Part shown: piece after piece, positions 1 through 54,472 of the stretch
How the letters are laid out: every line of letters begins with the position of its first letter
How positions within the stretch are numbered: position 1 is the first letter of the stretch
Source: Lycium barbarum
Taxonomy: Eukaryota > Streptophyta > Magnoliopsida > Solanales > Solanaceae
Assembly: GCF_019175385.1 (NCBI RefSeq)
Contig: NC_083341.1
Coordinates: 66,001,800 to 66,065,799, forward strand
DNA length: 64,000 nt
Direction of reading: 5' to 3'
Notes under the pieces: generated by a model
Databases searched by the model: none
Told to the model about the DNA's origin: nothing
What the model saw: the letters and a program-made list of their open reading frames with translations, nothing else
Made by a program: the position numbers and the translations under genes

Positions 1-2413
1 TCTACCTTTTTATTGTGTTATGAAGTTTTGATTGTGTTGTGGTATATAGAAATGTGTGGATTGTATGGGAAAATGGAAGTTTGCAAAGTGGGTTTGGAAT
101 ATGAGGTGTAGCCGTGTGTATATATAGGTGGTATACCCACAATGTGTTGAATTCATGTTATATTCTAATTGTGATTGTGATGAAATGCATATTGGGATTG
201 AAAGTTGAATGATTTAGTTGAAGTTGACAAAGAGGGTTCTTGGCCGTGTGGTATGTTGGATTTGGAATAAAAAAGAATTAAGTTGTTTAGTGTGTTAGTG
301 TGTTATTGTGATGTTTGTAATGTAAATGAAGTTAAAATGATATAAGTTTGTATTGAATTGGAATGTAGAAACTTATGTCGTTTTAGTATGATTGGCCGAC
401 AGTAAGGAAATGAAGTTGTTTGGTTGTGAATTATGATGATCATTGATGAATTTGGAAGTTGGAAACTTGTTATGAAGTTGTATGCCAAAGATTTGATGTT
501 TTGCATAAGTTATGACTTTGACGGAAAGTTGTATATTGTGTATATCGAGTGTGTAACTTGAGGAAAACGATATGAAATGCTTCAAGAACTATATGGTGAT
601 GATCTTGATTGTTGATGAATGTGAAATTATTGATATTAGTTGAAAGTTGGGTTGAAATGAAGATTATGTCAACTTGTTAGAAAAATGACTAGTTGAAGGA
701 TATTTGTGTTTTTAATGATTCATTGTTGATATTGATGTTGTCGTTTGGGTTGTTGGTGATTTATAGCCGAGTTGAATTCTCGGGGTGCTATATGTATAGG
801 GGAAGTGCTGCCGAAATTTCGGTAGACAATTATGCCTTAAGTTGAAACTTTGGTATTCATAGCTTACAATTGGTAAACTTGACCAATTGCAGTTTTTCGA
901 CGAAACGGGAAGTGAGTTTGGAAAGGCGTAAGGAGCGTGAAAGGTATGTAAAGCAACCCCAATTCTTCCCTTGGCATGCCCTTAGTGTGTTAGGGTCGGA
1001 TCCGGGCCTCGAAGGACCTCTTGGCCCTCGGAATCCGCAAGAGAAAATTTCAGTTTTTCCTTCAGTAGAATTGAACTACTTTGGTACACTTTTCTTGAAA
1101 TAATGCAACTTTGCTCCAAATTACTTGGAAAGTCATAGAATGCTTGTAGAACCTTCTTAGGTGATACCATAAGCTTAGAGGGCATAATTTGAGCCCGTCG
1201 CCTTATTTGTCCCGAGGCGGGCCCACTATTCCCTGTTTTGCCCTTAATGTATTAGAGCTTTCTTTTTAAGCAATTTTTGAGAGAAATGTTTTGATTACCC
1301 TACTAATCGCCTAACGAATATTGTTTTAAATATTCTATTAAATCTTATAAATTATTTTGACACTCGGAATGACTTCGGGAAGGTTATATTTCTGTACTTT
1401 ATTATGATATCCGAAATGCATATATTATGATTCCGTCCGACTTCATTGGATTTGTTTATCTTTGATATGCCTCTTCGAGTCTTTGAAAATATTTATGATA
1501 TTTTTAAATTGCATTAGTCTCTCACTACTCCATTCGTGGATGCCCCAATGTTTCCCACACTGAGCCCGGGCCAGGATATGTTGTCAAGCGTGATTCTCTG
1601 CATTGTTCGCCGCGTCCCGATGTGAGGGGGCAGGTATACGCGTACATGGGTGTGTGGAGTATGATGTGCCATGTCCGCCTATTCTGATCTGATCTGTTAT
1701 GGCCATTTTGATATGACATTTTATGATACGGGGTCACGCCCCTTTTTCTGATTCCTCTGTATTGTGGCACCAGCGTCGGGAGGGTGGCCACGTTCTGTCT
1801 GCTGAGTCCCGTGGCAGGGACCGGATATGATATGACATATGTTTCTGTACACATTCTGTCTGTTTTGGAAATATGCATTTGACACTCTGGATTTTGTACT
1901 CATTTTCTGAAATCATTATGATTTGACTTCTGTGATTCCGCTTTACATATTCAGTACATATTTCGTACTGACCCCCCTTTCTTCAGGGGGCTGCGTTTTC
2001 ATGCCGCGCAGGTACAGATGACAGGTTCGCTGATCCATCTGTTTAGGATCCCACTTCTGCTATTTTGGGGCGCTCTCTTCTTCAGAGCCCACTTTTTGGT
2101 ACAGTCTGTCACTGCTATCTGGATATGTACATTGTTCTGGGTATGACGGGGCCCTGTCCCGTCTTATGATTATGATATGTTCTGTAGAGGTCTGTGGATA
2201 TATCTGTGTGGGTTCTGTACATATGTTTGGGATACTTTGTTCTATGATGGCCTTATCGGCCTATGTGTGCCAAGTCTGCTTTTTATGCTAAATTCTGTAG
2301 CGTCCACTAATATTATTATTATATTATTTTGTTAACATGCTAATTTGGGTATCGGGTACGTATAGGTGCCCAGCTAGGGCACTGGTCGCGGCCCACGGGG
2401 TTGGGTCGTGACA
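1..2413 (+). mobile_element. 3' part of a long gypsy-type LTR (element runs off the left edge)
   Basis: No coding frame is recognisable. The end at 2395-2413 reads ...GGGTCGTGACA, the same terminus as the complete gypsy LTR ending at 21007, and the 400 nt before it have the same layout (double hairpin at 1952-1990, then a CAGGT-rich stretch). Directly after 2413 the pararetrovirus sequence starts in mid-gene, so this LTR landed in viral DNA whose left part lies outside the window. Whether it is a solo LTR or the 3' LTR of a longer element cannot be seen. Orientation comes from the TGACA end. Confidence 0.75.
1952..1990 (+). promoter_or_regulatory. Double hairpin in LTR (family 1)
   Basis: First stem CAGTAC/GTACTG (1952-1957 with 1965-1970, 7-nt loop), one spacer base, then a second stem of C and G runs (1972-1977 with 1986-1990) around a T-rich loop TTTCTTCA. 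It lies 423 nt before the LTR end. Equivalent structures with different stem bases occur at 20549, 28093, 34886, 38616, 50972 and 54217. The function is unknown; an R-region or leader RNA structure is an inference. Confidence 0.5.
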
Positions 2414-4577
2414 GAAGGAGAGGTTCATAACCTCAAACAAGAAATTTCCACCCTGAGGAGACACTAAACCACTCTAGATCATAGGGTCTCGCTACTTGAG
2501 GAAAAAGGAAAACAAATCATAGATACACCAGTTTATAATACTGTAGAGGACCTACCAGTTGATAACACCGTAGCAACTGTTCCTACGGAGGAAGGATAAA
2601 GTAGTGGTAATCCCAGTTCCGGTTTTTTGACAAAATTGGATATTATTACTTCTTTCAAATTTTTTATAAAAATTACTCGTCTAATTGATTACAATTTCAA
2701 AAATGATTTTACTGCTCTAGTTGATAGCGGAGCAGATTTAAGTTGTATTCAAGAAGGATTAATTCCTTCAAAATATTTTCAAAAAACTACTCATAGTTTA
2801 AGGTCTATTGGTGGCCAAAAAATGGGTATTACTTATAAATTACCCAAAGCTTATATTTGCCAAGACAATGTTTGTATTCCTGAAAACTTTGTACTGGTAA
2901 AAAATATTTCCAATCAAGTTATTTTGGGAACTCCATTCATCCATAAATTATTTCCTATTCCATGGATGGATGATAAAGGTTTTATAGGAACATATGATGA
3001 CAAACCCATTAAATTCGAGTTTATAATTGAACCTTTTTCAAGGATTTTAAATGAAATAAAAGATAGGTTGATGAATAAACATCAACAAATCAATTTTCTC
3101 AAACAGGAAATTTATACTCTTCAAATTGAAAATATTTTACAAAATCCTAAATTACAGGAAAAAATTGAGTTTATAAAAAATCAATTTTCTCTACAAATTT
3201 GTAGTGACCATCCTAATGCTTTTTGGGATCGGAAAAGACATATTGTCACTCTTCCATATGAAGAATCTGTTTTCTAAAAATAATATTCCTACTAAAGCAA
3301 GACCATGCCAAATGAATTCCGAATATTTGGAATTATGCAAAAATTAGATTTCTTCTCTCTTACAAAAAGGTCTTATAAGATCTTCGAAATCTCCATGGTC
3401 ATGCATAGCTTTTTATGTTAATAAACATGCTGAACAGGAACGAGAAGTCCCAAGATTAGTGATAAATTATAAACCTCTTAATAAAGTTTTAAAATGGATT
3501 CTTTATCCAATTCCTAATAAAAAGGATTTATTAGACCGTCTTCATAATGAGATTATATTTTCTAAATTTGATTTAAAAACAGGTTATTGGCAAATCCAAA
3601 TAGCCGAAGCAGATAAATATAAAACTACTTTTAATGTTCCAATTGGACAATTTGAATGGAATGTTATGCCTTTTGGACTGAAGAATGCCCCTTCAGAATT
3701 TCAAAAAATTATGAATGATATTTTTATGGCTTATAGCAATTTTATCATTGTTTATATCGATGATATTTTGGTATTTTCAAATACTATTGAAATGCATTTT
3801 AAACATCTTGATATATTCAAGAAAATCATTATTCAAAATGGTTTGGTTATATCTAAACCAAAAATGTTTCTTTTTCAAACAAAAGTCGGATTTTTAGGTC
3901 ATAATAATGAAAAGGGAAAAATTATTCCTATTAATAGAAGTATAGAATTTGCTTCTAAATTTCCTGATATTATTACTAATAAAACTCAATTTCAAAGATT
4001 TCTTGCAAGTTTAAATTATATTTCACCATTTTATAATGATTTGGCCCAAGGCACATCTATTTTATATGATAGATTAAAAAAGATTTCAAAATCTTGGACT
4101 GATGCTCACACGCAAGCAGTTCGAAAAATCAAAAAGAAAGTTAATAATCTTCCTTGTCTTACTTTAGCCAATCCTAACTAGCAAAACATTATTGAAACCG
4201 ATGCCTCTGATATTGGTTATGGAGGAATACTTAAACAACATTCTCCGAATGATAAACAAGAATATTTAGTCCAGTTTTATTCTGGCAAATGGAATAATAG
4301 TCAAAAGAACTATGCTACTGTAACAAAAGAAATTCTTGCTATAGTTAAATGTGTTCTTAAATTTCAAGGTGATTTATATAATCAAACGTTTTTTATAAGA
4401 ACTGACTGTCAAGCAGCTAAATTTATGTTTAATAAAGATTGCAAACATGATGTTTCTAAACAAATTGTTGCCAGATGGAAAACTCTTTTAGTACCATTTG
4501 ATTTCGAAATTTATTATAAAAAGGGATCAGATAATAGTCTCACTGATTTTCTCACTAGAGAATATTTAAGTTCATAA
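2414..4577 (+). pseudogene. EPRV segment A: protease - reverse transcriptase - RNase H, broken
   Basis: Starts inside the coiled-coil end of the coat region and runs through an aspartic protease (active-site DSGAD kept, near 2730), a reverse transcriptase with the catalytic YIDD (about 3753-3764) and an RNase H (TDASDIGYGG near 4198), ending at TAA 4575-4577. Compared with the copies at 15212-17700 and 7663-9543, in-frame stops are visible near 2596, at 3275-3277, near 3344 and near 4179; each looks like a single-base change. The longest open parts are 2627-3277 and 3459-4181. The first of these has no real ATG, being an internal piece of a polyprotein. It cannot give a complete enzyme. Confidence 0.9.
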
Positions 4578-4599
4578 CTGTCATTTTCTCATTTGCAGG

Positions 4600-5251
4600 A
4601 TGAGACCCACATTGACACCTCCCTCTAATAAAGGAAGGGGAAGAGGACAAAAAGGAACGGGCAGAGGCACTGTTCTTGCCCAAATGGGTAACAACAGGCT
4701 AATAGCCGATAATATTGCAGAACCTTCTGGTAATACCCAGAAACAAATCACTTATGTTGAATATCTTTCTTTTATAGAAGCACGGAAAAAAAGGGATAAT
4801 ATGCCTCCATCATATTCCAGTGCTCTCGTAGTTGATGATAATGAGGACACTGATTCATACGAAGAAAATACTCATCGAGAGTTAATAATTCTCCTTGAGA
4901 ATGATGATCTCCAATGAAAAGATAAACCTTGGCAAATAATGCAAAGGTATTTTGATACAGCGTCATACGCTACTCCGACTTATAAATATCGGATGAATTA
5001 TGAAATAATCCTTTCATATACAAGGTAAGCTGAATTTCAGCATTTTTATCCTTCTAATACCAAAAAAGTTTATAACTTTTCAAAAATTATTATAAAAAAT
5101 ATCTTTTCTCCAAATGAATGGGGAATAAGTCCGTTAAAGGATAGCGTTTATACACATCCTGAACAAAAGGTCCCAGTTAAAATTAATTACTGGGATTATG
5201 TTGAAAGCTTTAATAAAGCTTTTTTATATGAGAATCCTCATAGGAAACACT
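4600..5251 (+). pseudogene. EPRV segment A: 5' part of last ORF (TAV-position protein)
   Basis: ATG 4600 lies 22 nt after the RNase H stop, as in the other two copies. The N-terminus is basic and Gly/Arg-rich (RGRGQKGTGRG), followed by an acidic stretch. A TGA at 4915-4917 replaces a Trp codon found in copy B; homology then continues without a start to about 5251, where the sequence jumps to the opposite strand of another viral copy. In caulimovirids a gene at this place may encode a translational transactivator or inclusion-body protein. I see no motif that proves this, so the function is by position only. Confidence 0.75.
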
Positions 5252-5255
5252 CATA

Positions 5256-5439
5256 GTTTCTTCAGCAGTTTTAACTACTTGTTTGAGACCTATTTTCTCA
5301 AAAGTACCCATCTGATATATTAATCTAGGTTTTATTTTAGGAATCGTCCATTTATTAAGGAGATCAAGTTCTTGAGGAGTATCATATTCCTCTTTCTTAC
5401 TGCTTTTTAACAGTTCTTTTTCTATTTATAAAATTCATG
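5256..5439 (-). pseudogene. EPRV segment B: N-terminal fragment of movement protein
   Basis: Minus-strand ATG at 5439 lies 46 nt downstream of the primer site (5485-5498). About 61 codons match the start of the intact frame at 30811-31860, with a small indel near 5405-5410. The fragment is cut at the inverted junction with segment A (5251-5256), where both partners share a short TCATRG string. Because the same segment also contains the C-terminal part of this gene at its other end (11523-12285), the integrated molecule is circularly permuted. Confidence 0.85.
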
Positions 5440-5484
5440 ATATGAAATCGCTGAATTACATCACCTATTACTACTGGAATACCA

Positions 5485-5498
5485 TGGCTCTGATACCA
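5485..5498 (-). promoter_or_regulatory. EPRV primer-binding site (tRNA-Met), segment B
   Basis: The minus strand reads TGGTATCAGAGCCA, the complement of the 3' end of plant initiator tRNA-Met, as used by caulimovirids for minus-strand DNA synthesis. It lies between the viral intergenic region and the movement-protein ATG. A perfect 14-base match is kept here; the copy at 31907-31920 has one change. Confidence 0.9.
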
Positions 5499-6221
5499 TT
5501 AAGAGAGCAGGATCACGCCGCCACATGATACTATCTAGGTAACAACAGTTTTACTAGGTTACTAACCCTGGAGTTGGGGTTGTCCCTACCAGAACAAGTC
5601 CAACAAACGCCTTAAACGCCATCCCTCGGCTAAGCGGGCTAACAACAGGACCACCGCCTGGTCATGGACAGTCCGCCTGGGTCAGTCTCTACCTAACCTT
5701 GAACATCATGTTTTGGCTTCGACCATGATGCATTAAAGCATTATTACCATGATCTCAGTAGTCTAGTGTGACGTAATTCAACGGAGTATTTAGCCTATAA
5801 GGCTAAACATGAACTGAATTATAAATAAAATAAACAAAAAGGAAAATAAAAATTATACCTTAAATACGAAGGTTGTGCTCAACAGAAGAAGATTTATAAA
5901 AACAAACTTTTATTTATAATAGAAAGATTTACAAGGGAGAGAGTGGGAGAGAGCTTCTGCTTGAGAGATCCAAGACTTGCCTTCTTCCTAAGAAGAATGA
6001 TCCTTATATAACGGATCATGAGTACTAAACAACAAAATCAAAAAGTAAATGGCCGACAACATTATGGCCAGATAAAAAGAAAGGCGGAAAGTAAAAAGAA
6101 AAAGTGGCCGAAAGTGACCAAAGTGGAAAACATAATTATTACAATACAAATAATTATAGTTGCTTTATAAAAGCAGATTCCTTCTTTATTAAAGTAGTCG
6201 CCTAGTGGCGGGTCCCACCAA
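5499..6221 (-). promoter_or_regulatory. EPRV intergenic region, segment B: promoter, poly(A) signal and leader
   Basis: Minus strand, between the last-ORF stop and the primer site. TATATAA is at 6004-6010, followed downstream by a hairpin (arms CATTCTTC/GAAGAATG type), a CT-rich stretch, and AATAAA at 5909-5914, about 95 nt after the TATA box. A poly(A) signal shortly after the promoter is the normal caulimovirid arrangement, where the first one is bypassed to make terminally redundant RNA. The rest of the region shows no long ORF. Confidence 0.8.
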
Positions 6222-7640
6222 TTATTTCATCAGTGTCTTACCCTTGTCCTTTGTAGAGCTGGAAGATTCTTCCGTTTTGCCAATGAATTGGGCCGCAAAT
6301 TGTGAAAAGTCCTCGGTATTATCTAGACTTTGAGATTCTCCTGCTATGACTTGGGTATTATAGTCTTCTTCTTCTTCTTCTTCTTCATTATCAGTGGTAT
6401 GACCAACAGACGCCATTGATGTATCCGAAATAGCTTCCATATTAAGATGCCGCATTAAATTAGACTTAAATTCTTCCACATATGTGGATATAAGCTGTTC
6501 TGGGGGAATTACCCCTTTCTTCATTTGGATTTTTCGAGCAATGTGCTCAAAAGGACTGGAAACTTCCTTTTGTCTGGAATTAATGGAGTCCTTATAATGT
6601 GCAATGGTGGTTTTAATCTGATTTATTAAATCTTGTCATGGGATAGTGCCATCTTTTGATTTTTGAACCAATTTTTTCCAGAATTTTGTATAAAAAATTC
6701 TGTTTAAGCAAGGCATATTTTGCGGAGTATTACCCACTTCAACGGACCATTTCATAATCCATGGAATAGAAAATTATATGAAGATGTACATATTAGAAAT
6801 TTCTTCAGAGAAAGTAATATTATTTTCCAAATCTATAATTTTTGGAGAAACATCAACCCATTCAGTATATAAACTCTTGAAGGGTTCTGGTAAAGATTTG
6901 ACCGTTGGACCATAATGGATCTACCATTGATAAAACCAATTAGGAATGCCCTGTTTATAAACATTGGCACAGATTTTTATAAACCATGAGTGTTTCCTAT
7001 GAGGATTCTCATATAAAAAAGCTTTATTAAAGCGTTCAACATAATCCCAATAATAAAAATTAACTGGGACCTTTTGTTCACGATGGATATAATCCCTATC
7101 CTTTAACGGACTTATTCCCCATTCATTTGGAGAAAAGATCTTTTTTATAATAATTTTTGAAAAGTTATAAACTTTTTTGGTATTAGCAGGGTAAAAATGT
7201 TGGAATTCAGCTGATCCTATATATGAAAGGATCATGTCATAATTCATCCGATATTTATAAGTCGGAGTAGCGTATGAAGCTGTATCAAAATAACTTTGCA
7301 TTATTTGCCAAGGTTCATCTTTCCATTGGAGATCATCATTCTCAAGGAGAATTATTAACTCTCGATGAGTATTTTCTTCGTATGAATCAGTGTCCTCATT
7401 ATCAACAACTACGAGAGCACTGGAATATGATGGAGGCATATTATCTCCTTTTTTCTGTGCTTTTATAAAAGCAAGATATTCAGCATAAGTGATTTGTTTC
7501 TGGGTATTACCAGAAGTTTCTGCAATATTATCGGCTATTAGCCTTTTGTTACCCATTTGGGCAAGAACAGTGCCTCTGCCCGTTCCTTTTTGTCCTCTTC
7601 CCCTTCCTCTATTAGAGGGAGGCGTCAATGTGGGTCTCAT
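6222..7640 (-). pseudogene. EPRV segment B: last ORF (TAV-position protein), broken
   Basis: The first 239 codons (7640 to 6921) are open: a basic Gly/Arg-rich N-terminus, an acidic patch and a Trp/Tyr-rich core. A TAG near 6921 replaces a Trp codon of copy D. Further damage follows until a clean 100-codon C-terminal frame (6524-6222) with an acidic Glu run and a Ser/Lys-rich tail. The whole would be about 450-470 residues. ATG 7640 lies 23 nt after the RNase H stop. No catalytic motif is seen. Identity as transactivator/inclusion protein is positional inference. Confidence 0.75.
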
Positions 7641-7662
7641 CCTGCAAATGAGAAAATGACAG

Positions 7663-9543
7663 TTATGAACTTAAATATTCTCTAGTGAGAAAATAAGGGA
7701 GACTATTATATAATCTCTTTTTATAATGAATTTCGAAATCAAATGGTGCTAAAAGAGCTTGTCATCTGGCAAACATTTGTTTAGAAACATCATGTTTGCA
7801 ATCTTTATTAAACATAAATTTAGCTGCTTGGCAGTCAGTTTTTATTAAAAACTTTTGATTATATAAATCACCTTGAAATTTAAGAACACGTTTAACTATA
7901 GCAAGAATTTCTTTTGCTACAATAGCATAGTTATTCTGACTATTATTCCATTTGCCAGAATAGAAACTGCACTAAATATTCTTGTTTATCATTTGGAGAA
8001 AGCTGTTTGAGTATTCCTCTATAGCCAATTTCAGAGGCATCAGTTTCTATAATTTTTTGCCAGCTAGGATTGGCTAAAGTAAGACAAGGAACATTATTAA
8101 CTTTCCCCTTGATTTTTTGAACTTCTTGCGTGTGACCATCAGTCCATGGTTTTGGAATCTTTTTTAATCTATCATATAAAATAGATGTGTCTTGGGCCAA
8201 ATCTTTATAAAATGGTGAAATATAATTTAAACTTCCAAGAAATCTTTGAAGTTGAGTTTTATAAGCAATAATACCAGGAAATTTAGAAGAAAATTCTATA
8301 CTTCTATTAATAGGAATAATTTTTCCCTTTTCAATATTATGAATCTGACTTTTGTTTGAAAAAGAGACATTTTTGTTTAGATATAACCAAACCATTTTGA
8401 ATAATGATTTTCTTGAATATATCAAGATGTTTAAAATGCATTTTAATAGTATTTGAAAATACCAAAATATCATCGATATAAACAATGATAAAATTGCTAT
8501 AAGCCATAAAAATATCATTCATAATTTTTTTGAAATTCTGAAGGGGCATTCTTCAGTCCAAAAGCCATAACATTCCATTCAAATTGTCCAATAGGAACAT
8601 TAAAAGCAGTTTTATATTTATTTGCTTCAGCTATTTGGATTTTCCAATAACCTGATTTTAAATCAAATTTAGAAAATATAATCGCATTATGAAGACGATC
8701 TAATAAATCCTTTTTATTAGGAATTGGATAACGAATCCATTTTAAAACTTTAATAAGAGGTTTATAATTTATCACCAATCTTGGGACTCCTCGTTCCTGT
8801 TCAGCATGTTTATTAACATAAAAAGCTGTGCATGACCATGGAGATTTCGAAGATCTTATAAGACCTTTTTGTAAGAGAGAAGAAATCTCATTTTTGCATA
8901 ATTCCAAATATTCAGAATTCATTTGGCATGATCTTGCTTTAGTAGGAATATTATTTTCAGAAAAAAATTCTTCATATGGAAGAGTGACAATATGTCTTTT
9001 CCTGTCCCAAAAAGCATTAGGATGGTCACTACAAATTTGTAGAGAAAATTGATTTTTTATAAACTCAATTTTTCCTGTAATTTAGGATTTTGTAAAATAT
9101 CTTCAATTTGAAGAGTATAAATTTCCTGTTTGAGAAAATTGATTTGTTGATGTTTATTCATCAACCTATCTTTTATTTCATTTAAAATCCTTGAAAAAGG
9201 TTCGGTTGTAAACTCGAATTTAATGGGTTTGTCATCATAGGTTCCTATAAAAACTTTATCATCCATCCATTGAATAGGAAATAATTTATGGATGAATGGA
9301 GTTCCCAAAATAACTTGATTTGAAATATTTTTTACCAGTACAAAGTTTACAGGAATACAAACTTTGTCTTGGCAAATATAAGCTTTGGGTAACTTATAAG
9401 TAACACCCATTTTTTGGCCACTAGCAGACCTTAAACTATGAGTAGTTTTTTAAAAATATTTTGAAGGAATTAATCCTTCTTGAATACAACTTAAATCTGC
9501 TCCGCTATCAACTAGAGCAATAAACTCTTTTTTGAAATTGTAA
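7663..9543 (-). pseudogene. EPRV segment B: protease - reverse transcriptase - RNase H, broken
   Basis: Read on the minus strand: protease (DSGAD kept near 9495-9510; a stop shortly after it, near 9450), reverse transcriptase (YIDD kept at about 8470-8481) and RNase H down to a stop at 7663-7665. Breaks seen against copies A and D: an extra A in a homopolymer near 8525 shifts the frame between the 8922-8515 and 8549-8337 pieces, and about 8 nt are missing near 8340-8345. Longest open pieces are 9410-9057, 8922-8515 and 8518-7943. Non-functional. Confidence 0.9.
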
Positions 9544-10881: not shown

Positions 10882-10898
10882 ACCTTTAAACTTTTCAT

Positions 10899-17700: not shown

Positions 17701-17734
17701 TTAAGTTTATAACTGTCATTTTCTCATTTGCAGG

Positions 17735-18650: not shown

Positions 18651-18784
18651 TGTTACACCTCGGAAGTTTTCCCGTACTGGTATGATGACTGTATGGTGTT
18701 TCACTAAGTCGGGAATGGCTGATTATGAAATCTCGGAAAAATAATAAAGTTGCAGAGAAATTCACTGCCAGTGGTCGTATATGG

Positions 18785-19050
18785 CACTATACGGACCGTA
18801 TAGTGGTTTACGGACCGTATAGTGCACTCGTCCTTCAACCTGCCAAAAATCTCAACTTTCTGGAAATTGTTGAATATGGTTAAATACGACCCAGTTTACG
18901 GCCCGTAAACTGGTTTACGGACCGTAAACCAGGTCGTAAACTGCCCTGTCCACCAGCCAAACTCTCTGCTTTTGGAGAATGCTTAAATACGTTCACTGGG
19001 ACAGACCGTAAATCAGAATACGGTCCGTAAACTGCACATTACGGTCACTG
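18785..19050 (+). promoter_or_regulatory. Array of short palindromes in the U3-side of the LTR
   Basis: Perfect inverted repeats with a single central base: CACTATACGG/CCGTATAGTG (18785-18794, 18796-18805), CCAGTTTACGG/CCGTAAACTGG (18891-18901, 18903-18913) and GGTTTACGG/CCGTAAACC (18912-18920, 18922-18930), plus single and half sites to about 19050. All share the core TACGG-N-CCGTA. The array is repeated in the 3' LTR (26330-26590) and in the related solo LTR (35700-35990, minus). It could be a binding site for a dimeric protein or a source of RNA hairpins. Confidence 0.7.
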
Positions 19051-20548
19051 TTCATCCCGAAAGAAACTCATTAAACATTAGCTTTTGAGTTATTAAAAGG
19101 AACTTAGGCCTCATTTTATTTCATTCATTATTCATGCAACTCAGGAGACCTCTAGAACTTTCCAAATATTTTCTCCACAAGAATTCAAGAGAATCACAAG
19201 GAACATCAAGATCAACACCACCAAGCTTATGAAATCAAGTGTAAGAACACCATAAAAAATCATCCAGGTCAAGAAATCCCACCAAGGGTGGAACTAGGGT
19301 TTTAGCTAAGTGAAGAATCTCAACTTAAGGATTGTTCAACCTTCATCCAAGGTAATTTTTATGATTATTCCATATTGTTTGGAGTATTGGAAAGCATAGA
19401 CACTTGAAATGTAGAAGAACATAGAAATGGGTTATTAGTGAGTGAATAGTGGAATTGAACTATGAATATTGAAGTGTCGTGAATACAAATACGTTATAAA
19501 TGATGTTTATATCATGAAACAAGCATTAAATGCATGAAAACACAAGGATAAGCTAGAGGTAGGAATAAGGGGAAATTGGGGAAAATGGTGGATTTTGCCA
19601 ATTGTATGTAAATGACGAATGTTGAGTACGATATTGAGAGTAGTATCATAAATGTTGGGAGTGATATGAAACATGAGAAAAATGGAATGAACGATGGAAG
19701 CGCTGTACGACTTTTCCTAGAAATTGCGATACGTTCTTGTAGTTGGTCTATTAATGTTGATATGAATTCTTTATGAAGGTAACGACGCGATATTGAAGGA
19801 GAATGAGTGAGCGATATCTTAGCTAAACGACCAAGGTATGTGAGGCTAGTCCCTTCTTCCTGATGGCATGAATCTTGTAGCACGAAATTCCTATTCTCTT
19901 CATGAGTTCTTATAGTCCGAAAGGCTAAGAGTCTAACTCCTTAATGTCTATATAAGATGAGGAATACGATATGATGATGCTAGTATAATAATGATGTTAA
20001 TTATCGCTTACACTCACCTTATGTACTAGTTCCTTCAAGGTGAGGCAGAGTATCAATAGTTATTCCATAATGGAATCGGGGGATCACGACCTTACGTCAC
20101 CCCGATAGAATAAAGTTGATCTTGAGCCTTATGCATGTATTACAATGAGATAAGTATTTTATGATGAGTATATTATTATTATGAGCATTTTATGATAAGT
20201 ATGACATGAGCATTTCACACCGTGCCTAGTTGGCCGGGCAGTCACCGCCAAGACGGGCAGCTATACGGATACACCATGACCTTCGGGCGTGGGCAGACAC
20301 CACTAGTGGGCGGCATGAGATGGTACCCCGGACGCGGGAGGCCTGGACGCGGGCTAATAATATTGATTATCACACCGTTCCGACATGGACGGGCAGCTTG
20401 CATATGATGCATACATGTTATGAGGATGAGTATGAGTAAGATGGCACGCATGATTTCCTTTATGATTATCAGACAGATCCAGATATTTCACGTTGATGTT
20501 ATCACTATGTTGTTGATGTTTTCTTTCATTGTTTATGCTTCTCATACT

Positions 20549-20585
20549 CAGTACAACATTCGTACTGACGTCCTTTCTTCGGACG
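20549..20585 (+). promoter_or_regulatory. Double hairpin in gypsy LTR (family 2)
   Basis: CAGTAC/GTACTG (20549-20554, 20562-20567; loop AACATTC), one base, then CGTCC/GGACG (20569-20573, 20581-20585; loop TTTCTTC). It lies 422 nt before the LTR end, the same place as the structure at 1952-1990, whose second stem is made of C/G runs instead. Confidence 0.6.
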
Positions 20586-21011
20586 CTGTGTTCATGCCCA
20601 CAGGTAGACAGGGAGGAGAGCTTGGCCCAGATCCTCAGTAGCAGTCAGCTGGTTGAAAGCACTCCATTGTCCGGAGGTGCTTAGGATTATCCTTTTGGTA
20701 TATATATGTATATTTTTGGGCACGACGGAGTCTTGTTCCGTCCATGAATATACAGTATGTTAGTAGAGGCTCGTAGATACGCAGTGTGGGTTAGATGGTC
20801 TCACAAGACGTTTTCATATGCATGTTTATATTTGATGGCCGAAAGGCAATTGTATATAAAGTATTTATGTTTGTTTAATTATGATTATCCTACAACTGGT
20901 ATGTAAATTGATAAAAGAATATTAAATGAGCAAGATAAGTAGTAGAGTGAGCGGTGCTCGGTAACTAGCTCCGGGTACCCGTCGCGGCCCCTAGTTGGGT
21001 CGTGACAGAAG

Positions 21012-21025: not shown

Positions 21026-21199
21026 TTCGTCCTAGGAAGTGTCTACGAGCCGTGTCTAGTAGAGTCTTGTTTATGGTGTGTTGCGCGCCACGCTAATAAA
21101 CAAGAGGCTACAGGGCATTTAGGAAAATGACCATCCTTCTTCTCATGAAATCGTGCGATAGAGCCATGCTTAGGATTATGTTGTTCCTAAAAGTGCGTT

Positions 21200-24100
21200 A
21201 TGGTTTCAGAAAATGCCGCCAAAGGGAAAAGCTACAGCTGCCCAGAAGGACAAAGCTACGACATGTGGCAGGCGGAAAGAGAGCCTCCGGCAAATGTAGA
21301 GGAAAGCGAATCGCAAAGTGAGGTCGCGCCCAATGTAGAAGAGCAGGGAGGAGCCTCAGCTCCGATTCCTCCACCGGGTGCTTCGGGTCAACAAGTGTCC
21401 GAGGCCATCCATTTATTGACACAATTGGTTGCCGCTCAGGCACAACGACAGGATGCGGGTCCAAGGGATCGTTCAGCTAGCACGAGAGCCCGTGACTTTA
21501 TGGCCTTAAATCCTCCAGAATTCTTTGGGTCAAAGCCAGATAAAGATCCGCAAAATTTTATCGATGAGATGTTGAGGACTTTAGAGATTATCCATGCTTC
21601 CGAGATCGAATCCGTGGAGTTGGCTTCTTATAGACTCCGCGATGTGGCGGTGTTATGGTATAAGAATTGGGTGATAACAAGAGGAGAAAATGTTCCACCT
21701 CCCGTGTGGCAAGAGTTTGTAGATGCCTTTATTCGTCACTACTTGCCACCCGAAGTCCGCCGAGCTAGAGCGGACAAGTTCCTGAATTTAAAGCAAAGGG
21801 GTATGAGTGCCCGAGAGTATAGCATGCAATTCAACTCATTGGCTCGATATGCTCCGACTATGGTGGCCGACATGGGAGACAGAATCTATAGATTTGTGAG
21901 TGGTCTGGGGCCACATTTGTACAGAGATTGTTTGACGGCCTCCTTGCAAGACGGGATGGATATTTCCCGGATACAGGCCCATGCTCAGAATCTCGAGGAA
22001 CGACAACGACAGCAAAGAAGTTATCGTGATGGTGACAGAAGACAAGGTAAGAGGGCTAGGTCTATGGGAGAGAACAGTGAGTATAGAGAGGGATCGATAC
22101 AGACACATTCCAGGCACTCAGGTCAATCCGCGACTAGTGCGCCTCCCAAATTCTTAGACGGAAGGTTCGATCGCTCTTTCCAGTCAGGGCAGGGTCAGAG
22201 TTCGAGGGCCCCAAGTTCTCAGTATCAGGGAGATTTTAGTCAGAGGAGGCCTCCAGTACCGCGGTGTAGCCAGTGTGGCAAATTACATTCCGGACGGTGT
22301 CGTCAGGGTTCGGATGCTTGTTATGCTTGCGGGCAAGTTGGTCACATGATGAGAGATTGCCCCTCAGCAAGAGATAGAGTGGGGACTCAGCCTACAGGTT
22401 CAGCAGCGGGTTCTTCTTCAGCACGCCCGACAGCCCAGACCCCTCAGACTACAGCATGGAGAGGCAGAGGTAGAGGGGGAGCATCTACTTCAGGTGTTGT
22501 TCAGCCCCGTGTGTATGCTTTAGCGGGGCGACAGGATCTTGAGTCTTCCCCAGACGTTGTCACAGGTACCTTAACTCTATTTTTCCGTGATGAATATGCT
22601 CTGATTGATCCGGGTTCTACCTTCTCATATATTACTCTGTATATTGCTGATTGTGTTGGGGTGAGACCCGAGCCAATTAAACCTTTCGAAGTATTCACTT
22701 CGGTCGGTGATCCTGTAATAGCGAGGCAAGTATATAAGAACTGTGTAGTCATTATACGTGATCGTCAGACAAAGGCTGATTTGATTGAACTTGAGATGAT
22801 AGATTTTGACGTAATTATGGGTATGGACTGGTTGGCGTCATGCTATACTAATGTTTGTTGCCGGACAAAGGTAGTTCGATTCAAATTTCCGGGAGAGCCC
22901 ATACTCGAGTGGAAGGGTAATACAGTTTCCCCAAAGGGTAGGTTTATTTCCTACCTTAAGGCGAGAAAGATGATAGCCAAGGGTTATGTTTGTCATCTAG
23001 TTCGGGTTCATAACACGGAAGTGGAAGTGCCAGCTTTCCAGTCTGTCCCGGTAGTGAATGAATTCCCAGATGTGTTTCCCAACGAGTTACCAGGCCTTCC
23101 TCCAGAAAGGGAAATCAATTTTGCTATTGATGTAGTACCCAACACCGAGCCTATTTCTATTCCTCCCTATCGAATGGCTCCAGCAGAGTTGAAAGAGCTA
23201 AAGGCACAGTTGAAAGACTTACTCAAGAAGGGTTTTATTAGACACAGTTCATCACCGTGGGGAGCACCGGTCTTGTTCGTGCGAAAGAAAGATGGGTCGC
23301 TACGAATGTGTATCGATTATAGACAGTTGAACAAGGTGACTGTGAAGAACAGATATCCCCTTCCCAAAATCGACGACTTGTTCGATCAATTACAAGGTGC
23401 TAAGTGGTTTTCTAAGATAGACCTAAGATCGGGTTATCATCAAGTGAGGATCAGAGAAGAAGACATGCCCAAGACAGCCATCAGAACGAGGTACGGCCAT
23501 TACGAGTTCCGAGTAATGTCGTTTGGGTTGACGAATGCCCCGGCAGTGTTCATGAATTTGATGAATAATGTGTTCAGGCCGTTCTTAGACCTTTTTGTGA
23601 TAGTGTTTATCGACGATATCCTGGTATATTCTCGCACAGAGTCAGAACATGCAGATCATCTAAGAATTGTTCTTAGCGTTCTTCGAGATCGGGAATTGTA
23701 TGCAAAGTTTTCGAAGTGCGAGTTTTGGCTAAAATCCGTGGCATTTCTAGGTCATGTTATTTCAGATGATGGTATCCGAGTCGACACTCAGAAAATAGAA
23801 GCTGTGAAGACTTGGCCAAGGCCTACGACACCTACAGAAGTTCGTAGTTTTCTTGGGTTAGCAGGGTATTACAGGAGATTTGTAGAGGGTTTCTCATCTA
23901 TTTCAGCCCCATTGACGAAGTTAACTCAGAAGTTGGATAAATTCCAGTGGAATGATGCCTGTGAGCGTAGTTTCCAAGAGTTGAAAAACAGGTTGACCTC
24001 AGCGCCAGTGCTAACACTTCCAGAATGGTCCGATGGCTATGTCGTATATTGTGATGCCTCCGGTGTGGGAAAAGGATGCCTATTAATACAGCATGGGAGA

Positions 24101-24277
24101 GTCATTGCATATGCCTCGAGACAGTTGCGAAGGCATGAACAGAATTATCCGACTCATGATCTCGAATTGGCCGCGGTTATCCACGCCTTAAAAATATGGA
24201 GGCACTACTTGTATGGTGTACGTGTTGACATCTATACGGATCACAAAAGCCTCCAATATATTTTCAAACAGAAGTAG
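21200..24277 (+). CDS. Gag-pol polyprotein, N-terminal 1025 codons (GAG, PR, RT, RNase H)
   Basis: Residues about 90-280: retrotransposon GAG. Zinc knuckle [14 protein letters not shown] at 374-387, preceded by another Cys-rich CX2C stretch. Aspartic protease site LIDPGST at 468-474. Reverse transcriptase with FIDD at 803-806. RNase H with DAS near 952-954, ending at TDHKSLQYI. The frame is ended by TAG (24275-24277) where related elements normally have a sense codon; translation would otherwise continue into the next piece. The start is uncertain: ATG 21200 gives the open frame, but ATG 21213, in another frame, begins a MPPKGK-like start common in this clade, so a small indel may lie between them and about residue 35. 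Expression would need stop read-through. Confidence 0.88.
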
Positions 24278-25988
24278 TTGAACCTGCGGCAAAGGCGATG
24301 GTTAGAATTACTAAAGGATTACGATGTGAACATTCTATATCACCCAGGGAAGGCGAATGTAGTGGCAGATGCACTTAGCCGCCGATCGATGGGTAGTTTA
24401 TGTGGAGTTCCTTCGGAAAAGCAGGAAATGGTTCGTGAGCTCCATCAACTAGCAAGTCTCGGCGTACGTGCGACTGATGCAGGAGATGCAAGTATTAGCA
24501 TCAATGACCCCACAGTTTCATCATTGAGTCTAGAGGTGAAGGGACGGCAATATGAGGATTCCCAGCTAAGTCATTATCGAGATCTAGCTCACAAAAAAAG
24601 AAAAGTCTCCATTCGAAGTTTCCATAGAAGGGGTCCTTAGATATCGGGGCAGGTTATGCGTACCGGATGTGGCAAACTTACGCCAACGGATTTTAGAGGA
24701 AGCACATTATTCCCGGTATTCTATTCATCCAGGTGCAACAAAGATGTACCATGACCTTAAGTTGCTATATTGGTGGGATGGCATGAAGCGAGACATAGCA
24801 GGGTTTGTAGCCCAATGTCCAAATTGTCAGCAAGTGAAAGCCGAACATCAAAAACCAGGAGGTTTATTGCAAGCAATGGAAATTCCTACGTGGAAATAGG
24901 AAGAAATTAATATGGATTTTATGGTAGGATTACCCCGTGCGCGAGGGAAGTATGATTCTATATGGGCGATCGTGGACAGGCTCACAAAAGCAGCTCATTT
25001 TCTCCCCGTCAGGACTACATATTCAGCGGAAGACTATGCTAAATTGTATCTCAAGGAGATTGTACGACTTCATGGTATTCCTTTGGCCATTATCACGGAT
25101 AGAGGAGCGCAGTTCACAGCCAAGTTCTGGAAGTCCTTTCAAGAAGGTCTAGGTACTCGAGTTAAGCTCAGCACGGCGTTCCACCCACAGACCGACGGGC
25201 AAGCCGAGCGCACTATTCAGACCTTAGAAGATATGCTACGAGCATGTGTGCTAGACTTCGGTGGTAGTTCGGACGAGCATTTGCCTCTTATTGAATTTTC
25301 CTATAATAACAGCTATCATTCCAGCATTCAAATGGCCCCGTATGAAGCCTTATATGGAAGAAAATGCAGATCTCCAATTGGATGGTTTGAAACCGGAGAA
25401 GTACAATTGATAGGCCCCTACTTAATCCAACAAGCGGTTGAAAAGGTTAAAGTGATTCGAGACCAACTATTAACAGCTCAAAGTCGCCAAAAGTCTTATG
25501 CGGACAACCGCCGACGGGATTTAGAATTTCAAGCTAATGATTGGGTATTCTTGAAAGTCTCGCCAATGAAGGGAGTAATGAGGTTCGGCAAAAAGGGGAA
25601 ATTGAGCCCAAGATACATTGGACCTTATCTAATCATCCGCAAGGTGGGAAAAGTAGCCTATGAGTTGGACTTGCCTTCAGAGCTCGAATCTGTACACCCA
25701 GTATTACATGTTTCGATGCTCCGCAAGTGTATTGGAGACCCCACGAGGATTGTTCCGATTGATGATGTACAAGTGACAGAGAAGTTGACATACGAAGAAG
25801 TGCCCATTGCTATTTTGGATAGACAAGTGCGAAGGCTTCGGAATAAAAAGGTTGCTTTAGTCAAAGTTCTGTGGCGAAACGATAATCGGGAAGAAATGAC
25901 TTGGGAAGCGGAGGAGAAGATGAAATCTATGTACCCCCATTTGTTCCAATCCCCAGAAGAGATTCAAGATGAGACGTCGACGATATGA
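24278..25988 (+). pseudogene. Pol, RNase H end and integrase with chromodomain-like tail; one frameshift and one stop
   Basis: Continues directly from the TAG at 24275. 24278-24640 holds the RNase H end ([14 protein letters not shown]). A frameshift in an A run near 24593-24599 moves the reading to the 24669-24899 piece, which has the integrase zinc-binding H-H-C-C part (ending CPNCQQVK). A TAG at 24897-24899 stands where a Trp codon is usual. The last piece, 24912-25988, carries the catalytic core (IVDRLTK, ITDRGAQF and the Glu of the QAERTIQTLED region) and a C-terminal region ending EEMTWEAEEKMKSMYPHLF, typical of Tekay/Del chromoviruses. The DDE residues are all present. Confidence 0.88.
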
Positions 25989-26195: not shown

Positions 26196-28553
26196 TGTTA
26201 CACCTCGAAAGTTTTCCCGTACTGGTATGATGAGTGTATAGTGTTTCACTAAGTCGGGAATGGTTGATTATGAAATCTCGGAAAAATAATAAAGTTGCAG
26301 AGAAATTCACTGCCAGTGGTCGTATATGGCACTATACGGACCGTATAGTGGTTTACGGACCGTATAGTGCACTCGTCCTTCAACCTGCCAAAAATCTCAA
26401 CTTTCTGGAAATTGTTGAATATGATTAAATATGACCCAGTTTACGGCCCGTAAACTGGTTTACGGACCGTAAACCAGGTCGTAAACTGCCCTGTCCACCA
26501 GCCAAACTCTCTGCTTTTGGAGAATGCTTAAATACGTTCACTGGGACGGACCGTAAATCAGAATACGGTCCGTAAACTGCACATTACGGTCACTGTTCAT
26601 CCCGACAGAAACTCATTAAACATTAGCTTTTGAGTTATTAAAAGGAACTTAGGCCTCATTTTATTTCATTCATTATTCATGCAACTCAGGAGACCTCTAG
26701 AACTTTCCAAATATTTTCTCCACAAGAATTCAAGAGAATCACAAGGAACATCAAGATCAACACCACCAAGCTTATGAAATCAAGTGTAAGAACACCATAA
26801 AAGATCATCCAGGTCAAGAAATCCCACCAAGGGTGGAACTAGGGTTTTAGCTAAGTGAAGAATCTCAACTTAAGGATTGTTCAACCTTCATCCAAGGTAA
26901 TTTTTATGATTATTCCATATTGTTTGGAGTATTGGAAAGCATAGACACTTGAAATGTAGAAGAACATAGAAATGGGTTATTAGTGAGTGAATAGTGGAAT
27001 TGAACTATGAATATTGAAGTGTCGTGAATACAAATACGTTATAAATGATGTTTATATCATGAAACAAGCATTAAATGCATGAAAACACAAGGATAAGCTA
27101 GAGGTAGGAATAAGGGGAAATTGGGGAAAATGGTGGATTTTGCCAATTGTATGTAAATGACGAATGTTAAGTACGATATTGAGAGTAGTATCATAAATGT
27201 TGGGAGTGATATGAAACATGAGAAAAATGGTATGAACGATGGAAGCGCTGTACGACTTTTCCTAGAAATTGCGATACGTTCTTGTAGTTGGTCTATTAAT
27301 GTTGATATGAATTCTTTATGAAGGTAACGACGCGATATTGAAGGAGAACGAGTGAGCGATATCTTAGCTAAACGACCAAGGTATGTGAGGCTAGTCCCTT
27401 CTTCCTGATGGCATGAATCTTGTAGCACGAAATTCCTATTCTCTTCATGAGTTCTTATAGTCCGAAAGGCTAAGAGTCTAACTCCTTAATGTCTATATAA
27501 GATGAGGAATACGATATGATGATGCTAGTATAATGATGATGTTAATTATCTCTTACACTCACCTTATGTACTAGTTCCTTCAAGGTGAGGCGGAGTATCA
27601 ATAGTTATTCCATAATGGAATCGGGGGATCACGACCTTACGTCACCCCGATAGAATAAAGTTGATCTTGAGCCTTATGCATGTATTACAATGAGATAAGT
27701 ATTTTATGATGAGTATATTATTATTATGAGCATTTTATGATAAGCATGACATGAGCATTTCACACCGTGCCTAGTTGGTCGGGCAATCACCGCCAAGACG
27801 GGCAGCTATACGGATACACCATGACCTTCGGGCGTGGGCAGACACCACTAGTGGGCGGCATGAGATGGTACCCCGGACGCGGGAGGCCTGGACGCGGGCT
27901 AATAATATTGATTATCACACCGTTCCGACATGGACGGGAAGCTTTCATATGATGCATACATGTTATGAGGATGAGTATGAGTAAGATGGCACGCATGATT
28001 TCCTTTATGATTATCAGACAGATCCAGATATTTCACGTTGATGTTATCACTATGTTGTTGATGTTTTCTTTCATTGTTTATGCTTCTCATACTCAGTACA
28101 ACATTCGTACTGACGTCCTTTCTTCGGACGCTGTGTTCATGCCCACAGGTAGACAGGGAGGAGAGCTTGGCCCAGATCCTCAGTAGCAGTCAGCTAGTTG
28201 AAAGCACTCCATTGTCCGGAGGTGCTTAGGATTATCCTTTTGGTATATATATGTATATTTTTGGGCACGACGGAGTCTTGTTCCGTCCATGAATATACAG
28301 TATGTTAGTAGAGGCTCGTAGATACGCAGTGTGGGTTAGATGGTCTCACAAGACGTTTTCATATGCATGTATATTATTTGATGGCCGAAAGGCAATTGTA
28401 TATAAAGTATTTATGTTTGTTTAATTATGATTATCCTACAACTGGTATGTAAATTGATAAAAGAATATTAAATGAGCAAGATAAGTAGTAGAGTGAGCGG
28501 TGCTCGGTAACTAGCTCCGGGTACCCGTCGCGGGCCCTATTTGGGTCGTGACA
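26196..28553 (+). repeat. 3' LTR of the gypsy element
   Basis: Nearly identical to 18651-21007 over its full length, with the same palindrome array (26330-26590) and double hairpin (about 28093-28130). It is followed by the right target duplication GTTAT at 28554-28558. Confidence 0.93.
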
Positions 28554-32160: not shown

Positions 32161-32210
32161 CATTATCATTATCATTATTATCGTTGTTATTATTATTATT
32201 ATTATTATTA

Positions 32211-34465: not shown

Positions 34466-36119
34466 TGTCACGACCCAGCTAGGGGCCGCGACGGGTACCC
34501 GGGGCTAGCCACCGAGCACCACTCGCTCTACTACTTATCTTGCTCATTTAATATTCTTTTATCAATTTACATACTGGTTGTAGGAAAATCATAATTAAAC
34601 AACGTAAATACTTTATACACAATTGCCTTTCGGCCATCAAAATAATATACATGCATATGAAAACGTCTTGTGAGACCATCTAACCCACACTGCGTATCTA
34701 CGAGCCTCTACTAACATACTGTATATACATGGACGGAACAAGACTCCGTCGTGCCCAAAATATACATATATACCAAAAGGATAATCCTAAGCACCTCCGG
34801 ACAATGGAGTGCTTTCAACCAGCTGACTGCTACTGAGGATCTGGGCCAAGCTCTCCTCTTTGTCTACCTGTGGGCATGAACACAGCGTCCGAAGAAAGGA
34901 CGTCAGTACGAATGTTGTACTGAGTATGAGAAGCATAAACAATGAAAGAAAACATCAACAATATAGTGATAACATCGATATGAAATATCTGGATCTGTCT
35001 GATGATCATAAAGGAAATCATGTGTGCCATCTTCCTTTGCTCATACTACTTTCCATGTTTTATATTAACCCCCAACATTCATAGCATTACTCACAATATC
35101 GAAATCAACAATCGTCGTTTACGTATATTTAGCAAAATCCACCATTTTCCTCCAATTTCCCTCATAATTATCCTTATGACTCGTCCTTGCATTTTCATGC
35201 GTTTAATGCTTGTTTCATGATGTAAGCATCATTTACAACGTATTTGTATTCACAACACTTCAACATTCATAATTCAATCCCACTATCATTCATTTATGGC
35301 ACTATTCACTCAGTAATGGTCCATTTCTATGTTCTTCTACATTTCAAGTGTCTAAGTTTTTCAATACTTCAAACAACATAGAATGATCATGAAACTTACC
35401 TTGGATAGTGGTTGAACAACCCTTGAGTTGAAATTCTTCACTTAGCCTAAACCCTAGTTCCACCCTTCTTTAGAATTTCTTGATTTAGAAGATACTTTGA
35501 TGTGTTCTTACACTTATTTTCATGAATTTAGTGGTGATGATCTTGATATTCCCTTTGATTCTCTTGAATTCTTGTGGAGGAATAATTTGGAATGTTCTAG
35601 AGGTTTCTTGAGTTGTGTTGATGAATAATGAACTGAATTGTAGTCCAAGCCCCTTTTAATAATCCCAAAATTTGATATTTAATGAATTCTCGTCGGGTGA
35701 ACAGTGGTCGTAAATTGCAGTTTACGGACCGTATTCTGATTTACGGCCCGTCCACTGTGGACGTATTTAAGCATTCCAAGAAACATAAAGTTTGGCTGAG
35801 GATTATGGCACTTTACGACCTGGTTTACGGTCCGTAAACCAGTTTGCGGGCCGTAAACTGGGTCGTATTTAACCATATCAACGCTGGGCAGAAAGTTGAG
35901 ATTTTTGGAATGATGGAATACGATTGCACTATACAGTCCGTAAATCACTTTACGGGCCGTATAGTGCCATATACGACCACTGGCAGAAAAATTTTCTCCA
36001 ACTTTATTATTTCCAAAAATGCAAAATTAGTCATTCCCGACTTAGTAAAACACCATACACTCAAGTCCTTCATTGTTCTACTCATCACACAAGTACGGAA
36101 AAATTTCTGAGGTGTAACA
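34466..36119 (-). mobile_element. Solo gypsy LTR (same family as 18651-21007), internally deleted
   Basis: Minus-strand start TGTTACACC at 36119 and end GGGTCGTGACA at 34466. Target duplication CCGCA at 34461-34465 and 36120-36124. The length of 1654 bp, against 2357 bp for the intact LTR, shows internal loss. Palindrome array at 35700-35990 and double hairpin at 34886-34923 are kept. Confidence 0.92.
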
Positions 36120-38615: not shown

Positions 38616-38662
38616 CTGCATGGACATGCAGGTAAGGAGTGAGTTATACATAAATATAACTC
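38616..38662 (-). promoter_or_regulatory. Double hairpin in solo LTR (family 4)
   Basis: Perfect 8-bp stem GAGTTATA/TATAACTC (38641-38648, 38655-38662, 6-nt loop) and a palindrome CTGCATG/CATGCAG (38616-38622, 38625-38631). The pair is 428 nt from the LTR end, as in the other families, but the first stem has a wholly different sequence. Confidence 0.5.
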
Positions 38663-42090: not shown

Positions 42091-42122
42091 TAACATTTTA
42101 TGCTTTTTTTCCTCCAAAAGAG

Positions 42123-50971: not shown

Positions 50972-51024
50972 AGTACGTGTTGTTTGTACTAACCTGCACT
51001 TGCTGCATTCTTTTATGAATGCAG
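50972..51024 (+). promoter_or_regulatory. Double hairpin in solo LTR (family 3)
   Basis: AGTAC/GTACT (50972-50976, 50986-50990) and a perfect 8-bp stem CTGCATTC/GAATGCAG (51003-51010, 51017-51024; loop TTTTAT), 388 nt before the LTR end. A TATATATTA string lies about 35 nt upstream (50932-50940), which would place the first hairpin near a transcription start. Confidence 0.55.
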
Positions 51025-51417
51025 AGTATCAGGTGGGATCGACGTCTACCCCTTGTGGCAGACAGTTCGAGGCTGCTGATTCGAGTCTGTTGGCATGTGG
51101 ACGCTTCGCTACCCGAAGAATCTTCTTCTATTATGTCTCACTTTGCTATTCTGAGACATTATTGAGACTATTGATGTATTATTATTACTTCCAGACTTAT
51201 AGATTTTAGTTAGATGCTCTTGTATGACCAGACCAGATACTAGGGTGATTTTCGATTTACTTCCACACTTTTTATATATTCATATGTCAGACTTACGTTA
51301 CTTTATCTTCTTCCGCTATTTATACTGTGTTTATGAATGTTAGGTTAATGGTTCGCCTACCAAGGTTGGATAGGTAGGTGCCCGCGCGACTTTGTGAAAT
51401 TGGGTCGTGACAAATTC

Positions 51418-53737: not shown

Positions 53738-54472
53738 TGTCACGACCCAAACTTAGGAGCCATGACGGGCACCCGGGCCCTACTTGCCGAACACCTCTAA
53801 TCATACTTTCATATCATGATCATAGACACAGGGGTAGACCGCGAGGGTCATCAAATGAAAATCTGCTAAATCATATAAGAAATATGCTGACAAGGGATGA
53901 GCCCGAAAGAACATACTATATAACCATGCTGGACAAAAACTATGCAAGCCAACAAGGGCATCATGAAATACTATGCATGAAAAATGTAGGCTGAAAGGAC
54001 CAAACAACGTCTAACTATACCATGACTGTCTACAAGCCTCTACTGGAGTGTATCACATAACAAGGTGGGGAAACGGCCCCGCCATAGCCATGTGTATATC
54101 AAAAATATCGTACCAAAACAAAACTAGACTACAACTCCAGAACAAGAGGAGTGCTCCCATATCAGCTAAACAGCAACCTCCAGGGCGGATCGTCAACCTG
54201 CGAGCATGAAACGCAGCGCCCCCAGAAAAGGGACGTTAATACAGAGAAAGTACTAAATATGTAAGGCATAAAAGTAACATGAAAGAGACGTAAGAGTAGA
54301 TAGGATAAAATGAATGCAACCTGTATGTCTGAACTGCCTCTGTGGGCCAATGATATGCATAAATATTTTGCATGTATGCATGAGTTCATACATATATATA
54401 TGCGTATATAACGCCTGTCAAGCCTATGTGAGCATCCCATCGTATCATATCGGCCTCTGTGGGCATCATCAT
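53738..54472 (-). mobile_element. Gypsy LTR, minus strand, part next to the primer site
   Basis: Ends (minus) GGGTCGTGACA at 53738. The LTR is continued at 59506-61161 after removal of LTR B; the total of about 2.39 kb is close to the 2.36 kb of the complete element. Double hairpin at 54217-54254. Confidence 0.85.
54217..54254 (-). promoter_or_regulatory. Double hairpin in minus-strand gypsy LTR (family 5)
   Basis: Minus strand: AGTAC/GTATT (54250-54254 with 54238-54242, one G-U pair, 7-nt loop), then CGTCCC/GGGGCG (54230-54235 with 54217-54222, one U-G pair, 7-nt loop). Both stems pair in RNA but not perfectly in DNA, as expected if the RNA fold is what matters. Confidence 0.5.

Follow-up and report, generated by a model that had tools for sequence, protein, structure and literature searches.

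A conserved row of hairpins in the last part of LTRs of Lycium barbarum that looks like a working RNA structure

The 5′ leaders of retroviruses carry several short hairpins in a row, among them those for poly(A) control, dimerisation and packaging. Here, we describe a block of hairpins in the long terminal repeats (LTRs) of five retrotransposon families, named A to E, in a stretch of 64,000 nucleotides (nt) of the Lycium barbarum genome (RefSeq assembly GCF_019175385.1, contig NC_083341.1, positions 66,001,800 to 66,065,799, forward strand), hereafter called the window. By analogy, the block resembles the retroviral leaders in that several short hairpins stand in a row, are derived from the LTR and include one conserved loop; in contrast to them, it belongs to a plant element and is described here from sequence and predicted folds. 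Retrozymes, which are hammerhead-bearing LTR elements, likewise hold structured RNA inside plant LTRs, but neither a hammerhead nor any other Rfam ribozyme reached the gathering score in the window. Among all Rfam families, tRNA alone did so there, and a search of the family B LTR end with E-values up to 5 gave three far sub-threshold matches and no ribozyme.

Another structured cis-acting RNA of a plant LTR retrotransposon is the triple-helix element ENE of Evade/Copia93, which raises mobility (PMC12501189). ENE depends on U-rich internal loops that clasp the poly(A) tail within the 3′ untranslated region (PMC12501189), whereas the U-rich stretches of the block are hairpin loops. The LTR models of Benachenhou et al. 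2013, like the present block, concern conserved LTR parts; there, residual conservation in long R (repeat) regions is tied to stem-loops, and plant Metaviridae LTRs could not be modelled (PMC3601003). Our literature search found no description of this hairpin block, and the available portions of PMC3601003, PMC3485330 and PMC12501189 do not describe it.

In families A, B and E the block consists of three abutting hairpins, namely H1 (CAGTAC/GTACTG), then after one to two unpaired bases H2 (CCCCC/GGGGG or CGTCC/GGACG) and, without a gap, H3 (CTGYG/CRCAG, loop UUCAUGCC). Family A carries H1 at 1952..1970 of the plus strand, followed by the predicted hairpins H2 (C-run/G-run) at 1972..1990 and H3 (CTGCG/CGCAG, loop with TTCATGCC) at 1991..2011. 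In the 5′ LTR of family B, also on the plus strand, H1 lies at 20549..20567, H2 (CGTCC/GGACG) at 20569..20585 and H3 (CTGTG/CACAG) at 20586..20603; the row recurs in the 3′ LTR at 28094..28148 (plus) and in a second B-type LTR copy at 34868..34922 (minus). The family E hairpins are located on the minus strand, with H1 at 54238..54254, H2 (CGTCCC/GGGGCG) at 54217..54235 and H3 (CTGCG/CGCAG) at 54198..54216. Families C and D show a first hairpin, a spacer (9 nt in C, 12 nt in D) and an H3-like hairpin. These are GAGTTATA/TATAACTC at 38641..38662 and CTGCATG/CATGCAG at 38616..38631 on the minus strand in C, and H1 (AGTAC/GTACT) at 50972..50990 and CTGCATTC/GAATGCAG at 51003..51024 on the plus strand in D.

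A sequence-only reading of the window had described two hairpins in a row in LTRs of several families. All of its stems are present at the positions and on the strands that it gave, and the 388-479 nt that it counted between the second hairpin and the LTR 3′ end are confirmed (423 nt in A, 422 in B, 428 in C, 388 in D and 479 in E). The two hairpins exist as described, but a third one after the second had been overlooked in A, B and E. Furthermore, the second stems had been equated across families, while the stem in C and D is the counterpart of H3, by its position and its CTG...CAG ends, and not of H2. A, B and E are related in the block and are thus not independent cases.

Two hairpins in a row are not rare in themselves, because tandem pairs of at least 11 bp occurred in 88 (A), 111 (B), 91 (C), 101 (D) and 92 (E) of 150 shuffles of the 600-nt LTR ends (59-74%), and in 158 of 180 tile-strands from the rest of the window (600-nt tiles, both strands). 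The shared place is a different matter. H1 starts 441-517 nt before the LTR 3′ end, and a tandem pair with the first hairpin starting 430-515 nt from this end was observed in all five LTRs against 10-23% of 400 shuffles of each, with LTR ends up to 7 nt short in these tests and positions shifting accordingly; elsewhere, one of the five LTRs had such a pair in every start window between 60-145 nt and 340-425 nt. Taken as five independent cases, however, the shared place would be overstated, because A, B and E count as one origin there and D may share it.

Folding points to the same site. In each of the five families, 75-nt windows over the cluster give better folds than 150 dinucleotide-shuffled versions, the lowest z being -4.2 in A, -3.0 in B, -2.9 in C, -3.7 in D and -3.5 in E (LTR ends 17 nt short in E and 4 nt in D, which shifts positions accordingly). 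Over the final ~600 nt, z is lowest at the cluster in A, B, D and E, whereas in C the cluster ranks second to another site with z -4.1. A second structured site lies downstream of the block with z from -1.5 to -4.1.

The block also stands out by conservation. Pairwise identity between A, B and E is 71-77% over 74-81 nt, and the block is the strongest match in all three comparisons (E-values 2e-8 to 9e-6); A and B share a further 94-nt stretch downstream (E-value 4e-4). No other part of 23 diverse LTR ends is as well conserved (up to 1.77 bits, followed by 1.36 at GTAGAGG), although this is partly built in, as 20 of the 23 ends were picked by matches fixed at 17 of ~65 block positions. A conserved GTAGAGGCTCGTAGA stretch is present downstream of the block in these ends as well. 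The genome, from which all genome-wide pattern counts derive, comprises 1.67 Gb in 164 contigs and contains 80,275 matches to the pattern GTACTGAC-12..40-TTCATGCC against 16 for a reversed control. A second block pattern gave 90,734 matches against 36, some places being counted twice. Two patterns gave no match in viral contigs, and the bacterial and archaeal genomes, searched with one pattern, gave a single match in Flavihumibacter (L069), which was taken as chance. Family D is probably related to A, B and E in the block, because 11 of its 21 copies carry exactly the CAGTAC...GTACTG of A and B as H1. Family C shows no such sequence likeness; its 30 segments contain no GTAC, and two hairpins are kept at the same place.

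The covariation of the stems was analysed on 66 listed rows with complete H1, rows starting inside H1 being dropped, which left 55 unique sequences; in these, the search had fixed no positions other than CATAYT, TTCATGCC and GGT. H2 takes the forms CCCCC/GGGGG, CGTCC/GGACG, CGCCC/GGGCG and rarer ones in this set, and H3 those of CTGCG/CGCAG and CTGTG/CACAG. Pairing is present in 265 of 274 cells for H2, of which 48 are double-change cells (shuffle maximum 32), and in 264 of 275 for H3, with 18 such cells (shuffle maximum 11). When the 3′ partners were re-dealt, the observed pairing was reached in none of 2,000 trials for H2 and H3, and in 2,000 of 2,000 for H1. Under a tree-based null, in which substitutions are replayed on the tree, H2 pair 2 takes the first and H3 pair 4 the third place among all column pairs. 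When the test is restricted to the 16 proposed pairs, the E-values are 0.0009 for H2 pair 2, 0.024 for H3 pair 4 and 0.09 for H2 pair 3. Few events are inferred: in H2 pair 2, G-C became C-G once and A-U once, H2 pair 3 went from U-A via U-G to C-G, and in H3 pair 4 C-G became U-A once. The covariation is thus real but modest.

The claim that both sides of the stems change together consequently holds for H2 and H3, where double changes exceed the shuffles and one pair each survives the tree null over the proposed pairs, but not for H1, which is held by its sequence. Selection on an RNA fold is likewise supported, though by few independent changes, for the pairing of H2 and H3, and not for H1. 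The G-U pairs, which had been read as a further sign of such selection, do not serve this purpose. Single changes inferred on the tree made G-U in 23 cases and A-C in 16, as decay of dead copies would give, and for H1-H3 these numbers are not decisive as a test of strand. The 30 copies of family E include A-C mismatches and lone changes among their stem variants, and G-U pairs within families look like copy decay.

Two more hairpins, HX and H4, follow within ~200 nt downstream of H1-H3; their sequences vary while the pairing is mostly preserved. HX, of the form CTCC...GGAG or CTCT...AGAG, was found by pattern in 20 of 23 LTRs (at another place in L076), and the pattern for H4 matched 13 of the 23. 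On the plus strand, HX lies at 2067..2090 in family A and at 20658..20681 in the 5′ LTR of B, and H4 at 2145..2163 in A (GACGGG/CCCGTC, from the fold and the genome-wide pattern) and at 20724..20742 in B. Family E has HX at 54132..54156 and the H4 region at 54064..54083, both on the minus strand, and D a downstream hairpin (GTCTCA/TGAGAC) at 51135..51157 (plus). The H4 pattern has 31,787 matches genome-wide and none in the control. Among 100 rows listed, its outer pair is G-U in 50, A-U in 28, G-C in 15, G-A in 6, C-A in 1 and A-C in none, while 93 rows have a standard pair next to it. This is the pattern which RNA of the sense strand would tolerate, although it may rest on two old events.

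We consider the block a sense-strand, cis-acting RNA element of LTRs of Tekay/Del-like chromoviruses, used in the handling of genomic RNA, and give this tentative reading a probability of roughly 0.45. The clade name is applied to the B and A elements provisionally. The H2 and H3 stems would be kept through base pairing, while the stem of H1 and the loop UUCAUGCC of H3 would be held by sequence and would be the probable sites of contact with a protein or RNA, the constancy of the loop being partly by construction as it was also a search anchor. Stems held by pairing together with an H1 and a loop held by sequence would be typical of RNA signals that bind a protein or another RNA. The CAU-bearing H3 loop may resemble the anticodon arm of tRNA-Met. 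We infer that the block belongs to the R region of the transcript, and a place in R or the leader, which is possible, would bring it near both ends of the genomic RNA. Because this leader position is the first guess, genomic-RNA handling is the first choice of function, with packaging or dimerisation put first and transfer during reverse transcription second.

The homology of LTR ends is consistent with this arrangement. The last ~600 nt show near-complete homology among 30 copies of E, thinning further upstream (E LTR ends 32 nt short here, positions shifting accordingly). The two B-type LTRs match at 95% identity in their final ~575 nt and at 80% upstream, with 19700-20435 unmatched. The shared core within E and between the B-type LTRs thus starts before H1, at ~575-630 nt from the LTR end, and as judged from these alignments it would fit a promoter, R and U5 (unique 5′ region) with the block inside the transcript.

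Several results weigh against an RNA element in the leader. A scan for TATAWW gave no peak, as no 20-nt bin had the motif in more than 5 of 23 LTRs. The measured LTRs are similar in length (C ~1.85 kb, A at least 2,014 nt, B 2.36 kb), and therefore the fixed distance to the 3′ end does not favour R over U3 (unique 3′ region). Over all 1,953 column pairs no E-value falls below 0.1 (H2 pair 2 0.105, H3 pair 4 2.9, H2 pair 3 11.4), so that, of the covariation expected of a retroviral-type signal, the proposed pairs yield a single pair each in H2 and H3 and none in H1, and the test over all pairs yields none. H3 pair 5 went from G-C to A-U via an A-C mismatch. H2 pair 3 has a purine in 446 places and is compensated in 1 of 100 among the matches listed, 18 of which were scored by script and the others by eye. 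H1 shows no double-change cell in the 55 unique sequences. Its fourth base is changed at 685 places genome-wide (control 3); letters were visible in 35 listed rows and the complete H1 region in 18, and among these 18 readable copies one is compensated, while four related copies share one broken pair. The outer pair of H4 is non-standard in 7 of the 100 rows listed.

The constancy of H1 would suit a DNA element instead, in which the inverted repeats are protein-binding sites of the LTR promoter, conservation stems from binding to double-stranded DNA and the hairpins are by-products. H1 forms two inverted GTAC sites, GTAC presumably being the core bound by the SBP/SPL factors of plants. It is fixed in sequence, does not covary and has the form CAGTAC/GTACTG in A, B, most of the listed E rows and 11 of 21 D copies; moreover, transcription may start downstream of the block. 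Nevertheless, we regard a DNA element as rather unlikely, since the sequences of H2 and H3 change with pairing kept, loop lengths vary, the outer pair of H4 is mostly G-U and never A-C in the rows listed, which favours one strand, and the family C segments lack GTAC.

Distinctly unlikely is a 3′-end RNA element in U3, of which only the copy in the 3′ LTR is transcribed and which protects or processes the RNA 3′ end as ENE does. TATA-like letters between HX and H4 in family B would set the start downstream of H1-H3, and ENE motifs are reported from plant LTR retrotransposons (PMC12501189). However, H4 would straddle such a start and TATAWW has no peak. The predicted folds show no U-rich internal loop facing an A-tract, the hallmark of ENE, and in the five LTR-end folds H1-H3 appear as simple hairpins, with Rfam as the extent of the search for ENE.

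A more specific form of the favoured RNA element, in which H1, H2, H3, HX and H4 together are a leader signal for packaging, dimerisation or reverse transcription and is exploited by defective families, C among them, that keep the hairpins in cis, appears decidedly improbable. Family C, with its two hairpins in place and no long frames in the copies analysed, is as a cis-needed signal would predict, but it lacks sequence likeness to the block and may be a case of chance. Chance hairpins without function, carried by copies of a few successful families, are very improbable, since the frequency of tandem hairpins in shuffled LTR ends and a within-family variation that looks like decay are set against the place shared by all five LTRs, the best conserved part of the LTR end and the compensated pairs between subfamilies.

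Two other candidates were set aside. A coding function is rejected because the H1-to-H3 stretch of 21-25 nt covers all three remainders, though single copies read open. A putative splice site CAG|GT at the end of H3, as seen in A, B and E, has no counterpart in C and D, which have no GT there.

One carrier of the block is the full-length element of family B at 18651-28553 (plus), a chromovirus-type element with TG...CA ends. Its 5′ LTR (18651..21007, 2,357 nt) and 3′ LTR (26196..28553, 2,358 nt) are 98.9% identical, and a 5-bp target duplication, GTTAT, flanks it at 18646-18650 and 28554-28558. The primer-binding site is TGGTATCAGAGC, which we take to be of the Met type, i.e. to match tRNA-Met. 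A gag-pol frame at 21191..24277 (plus) includes gag, zinc knuckle, protease, reverse transcriptase and RNase H, followed by an integrase part with a Chromo match at 24900..25988 (plus). The Pfam scan of B and A showed the Ty3/gypsy order (gag, protease, reverse transcriptase, RNase H, integrase), with gag, RVP_2, RNase H and rve in both and RVT_1 in B. The Chromo matches of B and A (21.9 and 21.5 bits, E-values 0.00017 and 0.00023) lie below the Pfam cut-off of 25.1. In the family A copy L071, which lies elsewhere in the genome, gag, protease, RNase H, integrase and the equally weak chromodomain are spread over two frames. For the LTRs of family A, the comparison of the two LTRs of one element gives a length of at least 2,014 nt. 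Family C is decayed, with likeness to reverse transcriptase and integrase only; L070 has no frame of 150 amino acids and L072 none over 82 amino acids on the sense strand. Its copies are 96-97% identical to each other among the listed matches, its primer-binding site resembles that of B, and its LTRs measured 1,858, 1,862, 1,857 and 1,784 nt as aligned within four elements.

The LTR 3′ end itself forms a hairpin, at 2385..2412 in family A and, adjoining the primer-binding site, at 20981..21006 in the 5′ LTR of B (both plus). Its outer arm is the LTR's own end, and it occurs in two pairing forms, ...CGGCCC/GGGTCG... and ...CACACCC/GGGTGTG.... The arms change together in most copies (those in the window and L074-L076, L078, L080, L083-L085, L087-L089). 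In the second B-type LTR copy, at 34466-36063, one stretch is missing and one piece partly inverted upstream of the well-matched end, so that it looks, from the alignment, like a recombinant or rearranged LTR. The full-length B element stands beside and between rearranged copies of a pararetrovirus-like element, present on both strands at 2413-18650 and 28554-31951 with Pfam matches to a movement protein (MP, 30811-31920, minus) and to reverse transcriptase (16271-17107, plus). Elsewhere, the window holds a tRNA-Ser (GCT) gene at 42924-43006 (minus), a 300-nt direct repeat at 42120-42419 and 42538-42837 (99% identical, starts 418 nt apart) and long ATT/TAA/AAG microsatellite runs at 31973-32280.

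Gypsy-type chromoviruses occupy large parts of plant genomes, and to our knowledge their RNA signals for packaging and copying are hardly known. A block with ~80,000 pattern matches in one genome is a concrete place to look for such signals. In addition, it is a marker by which LTRs of this group can be recognised where their sequences are otherwise little alike, and it offers an explanation, open to testing, for how elements lacking long frames might have spread.

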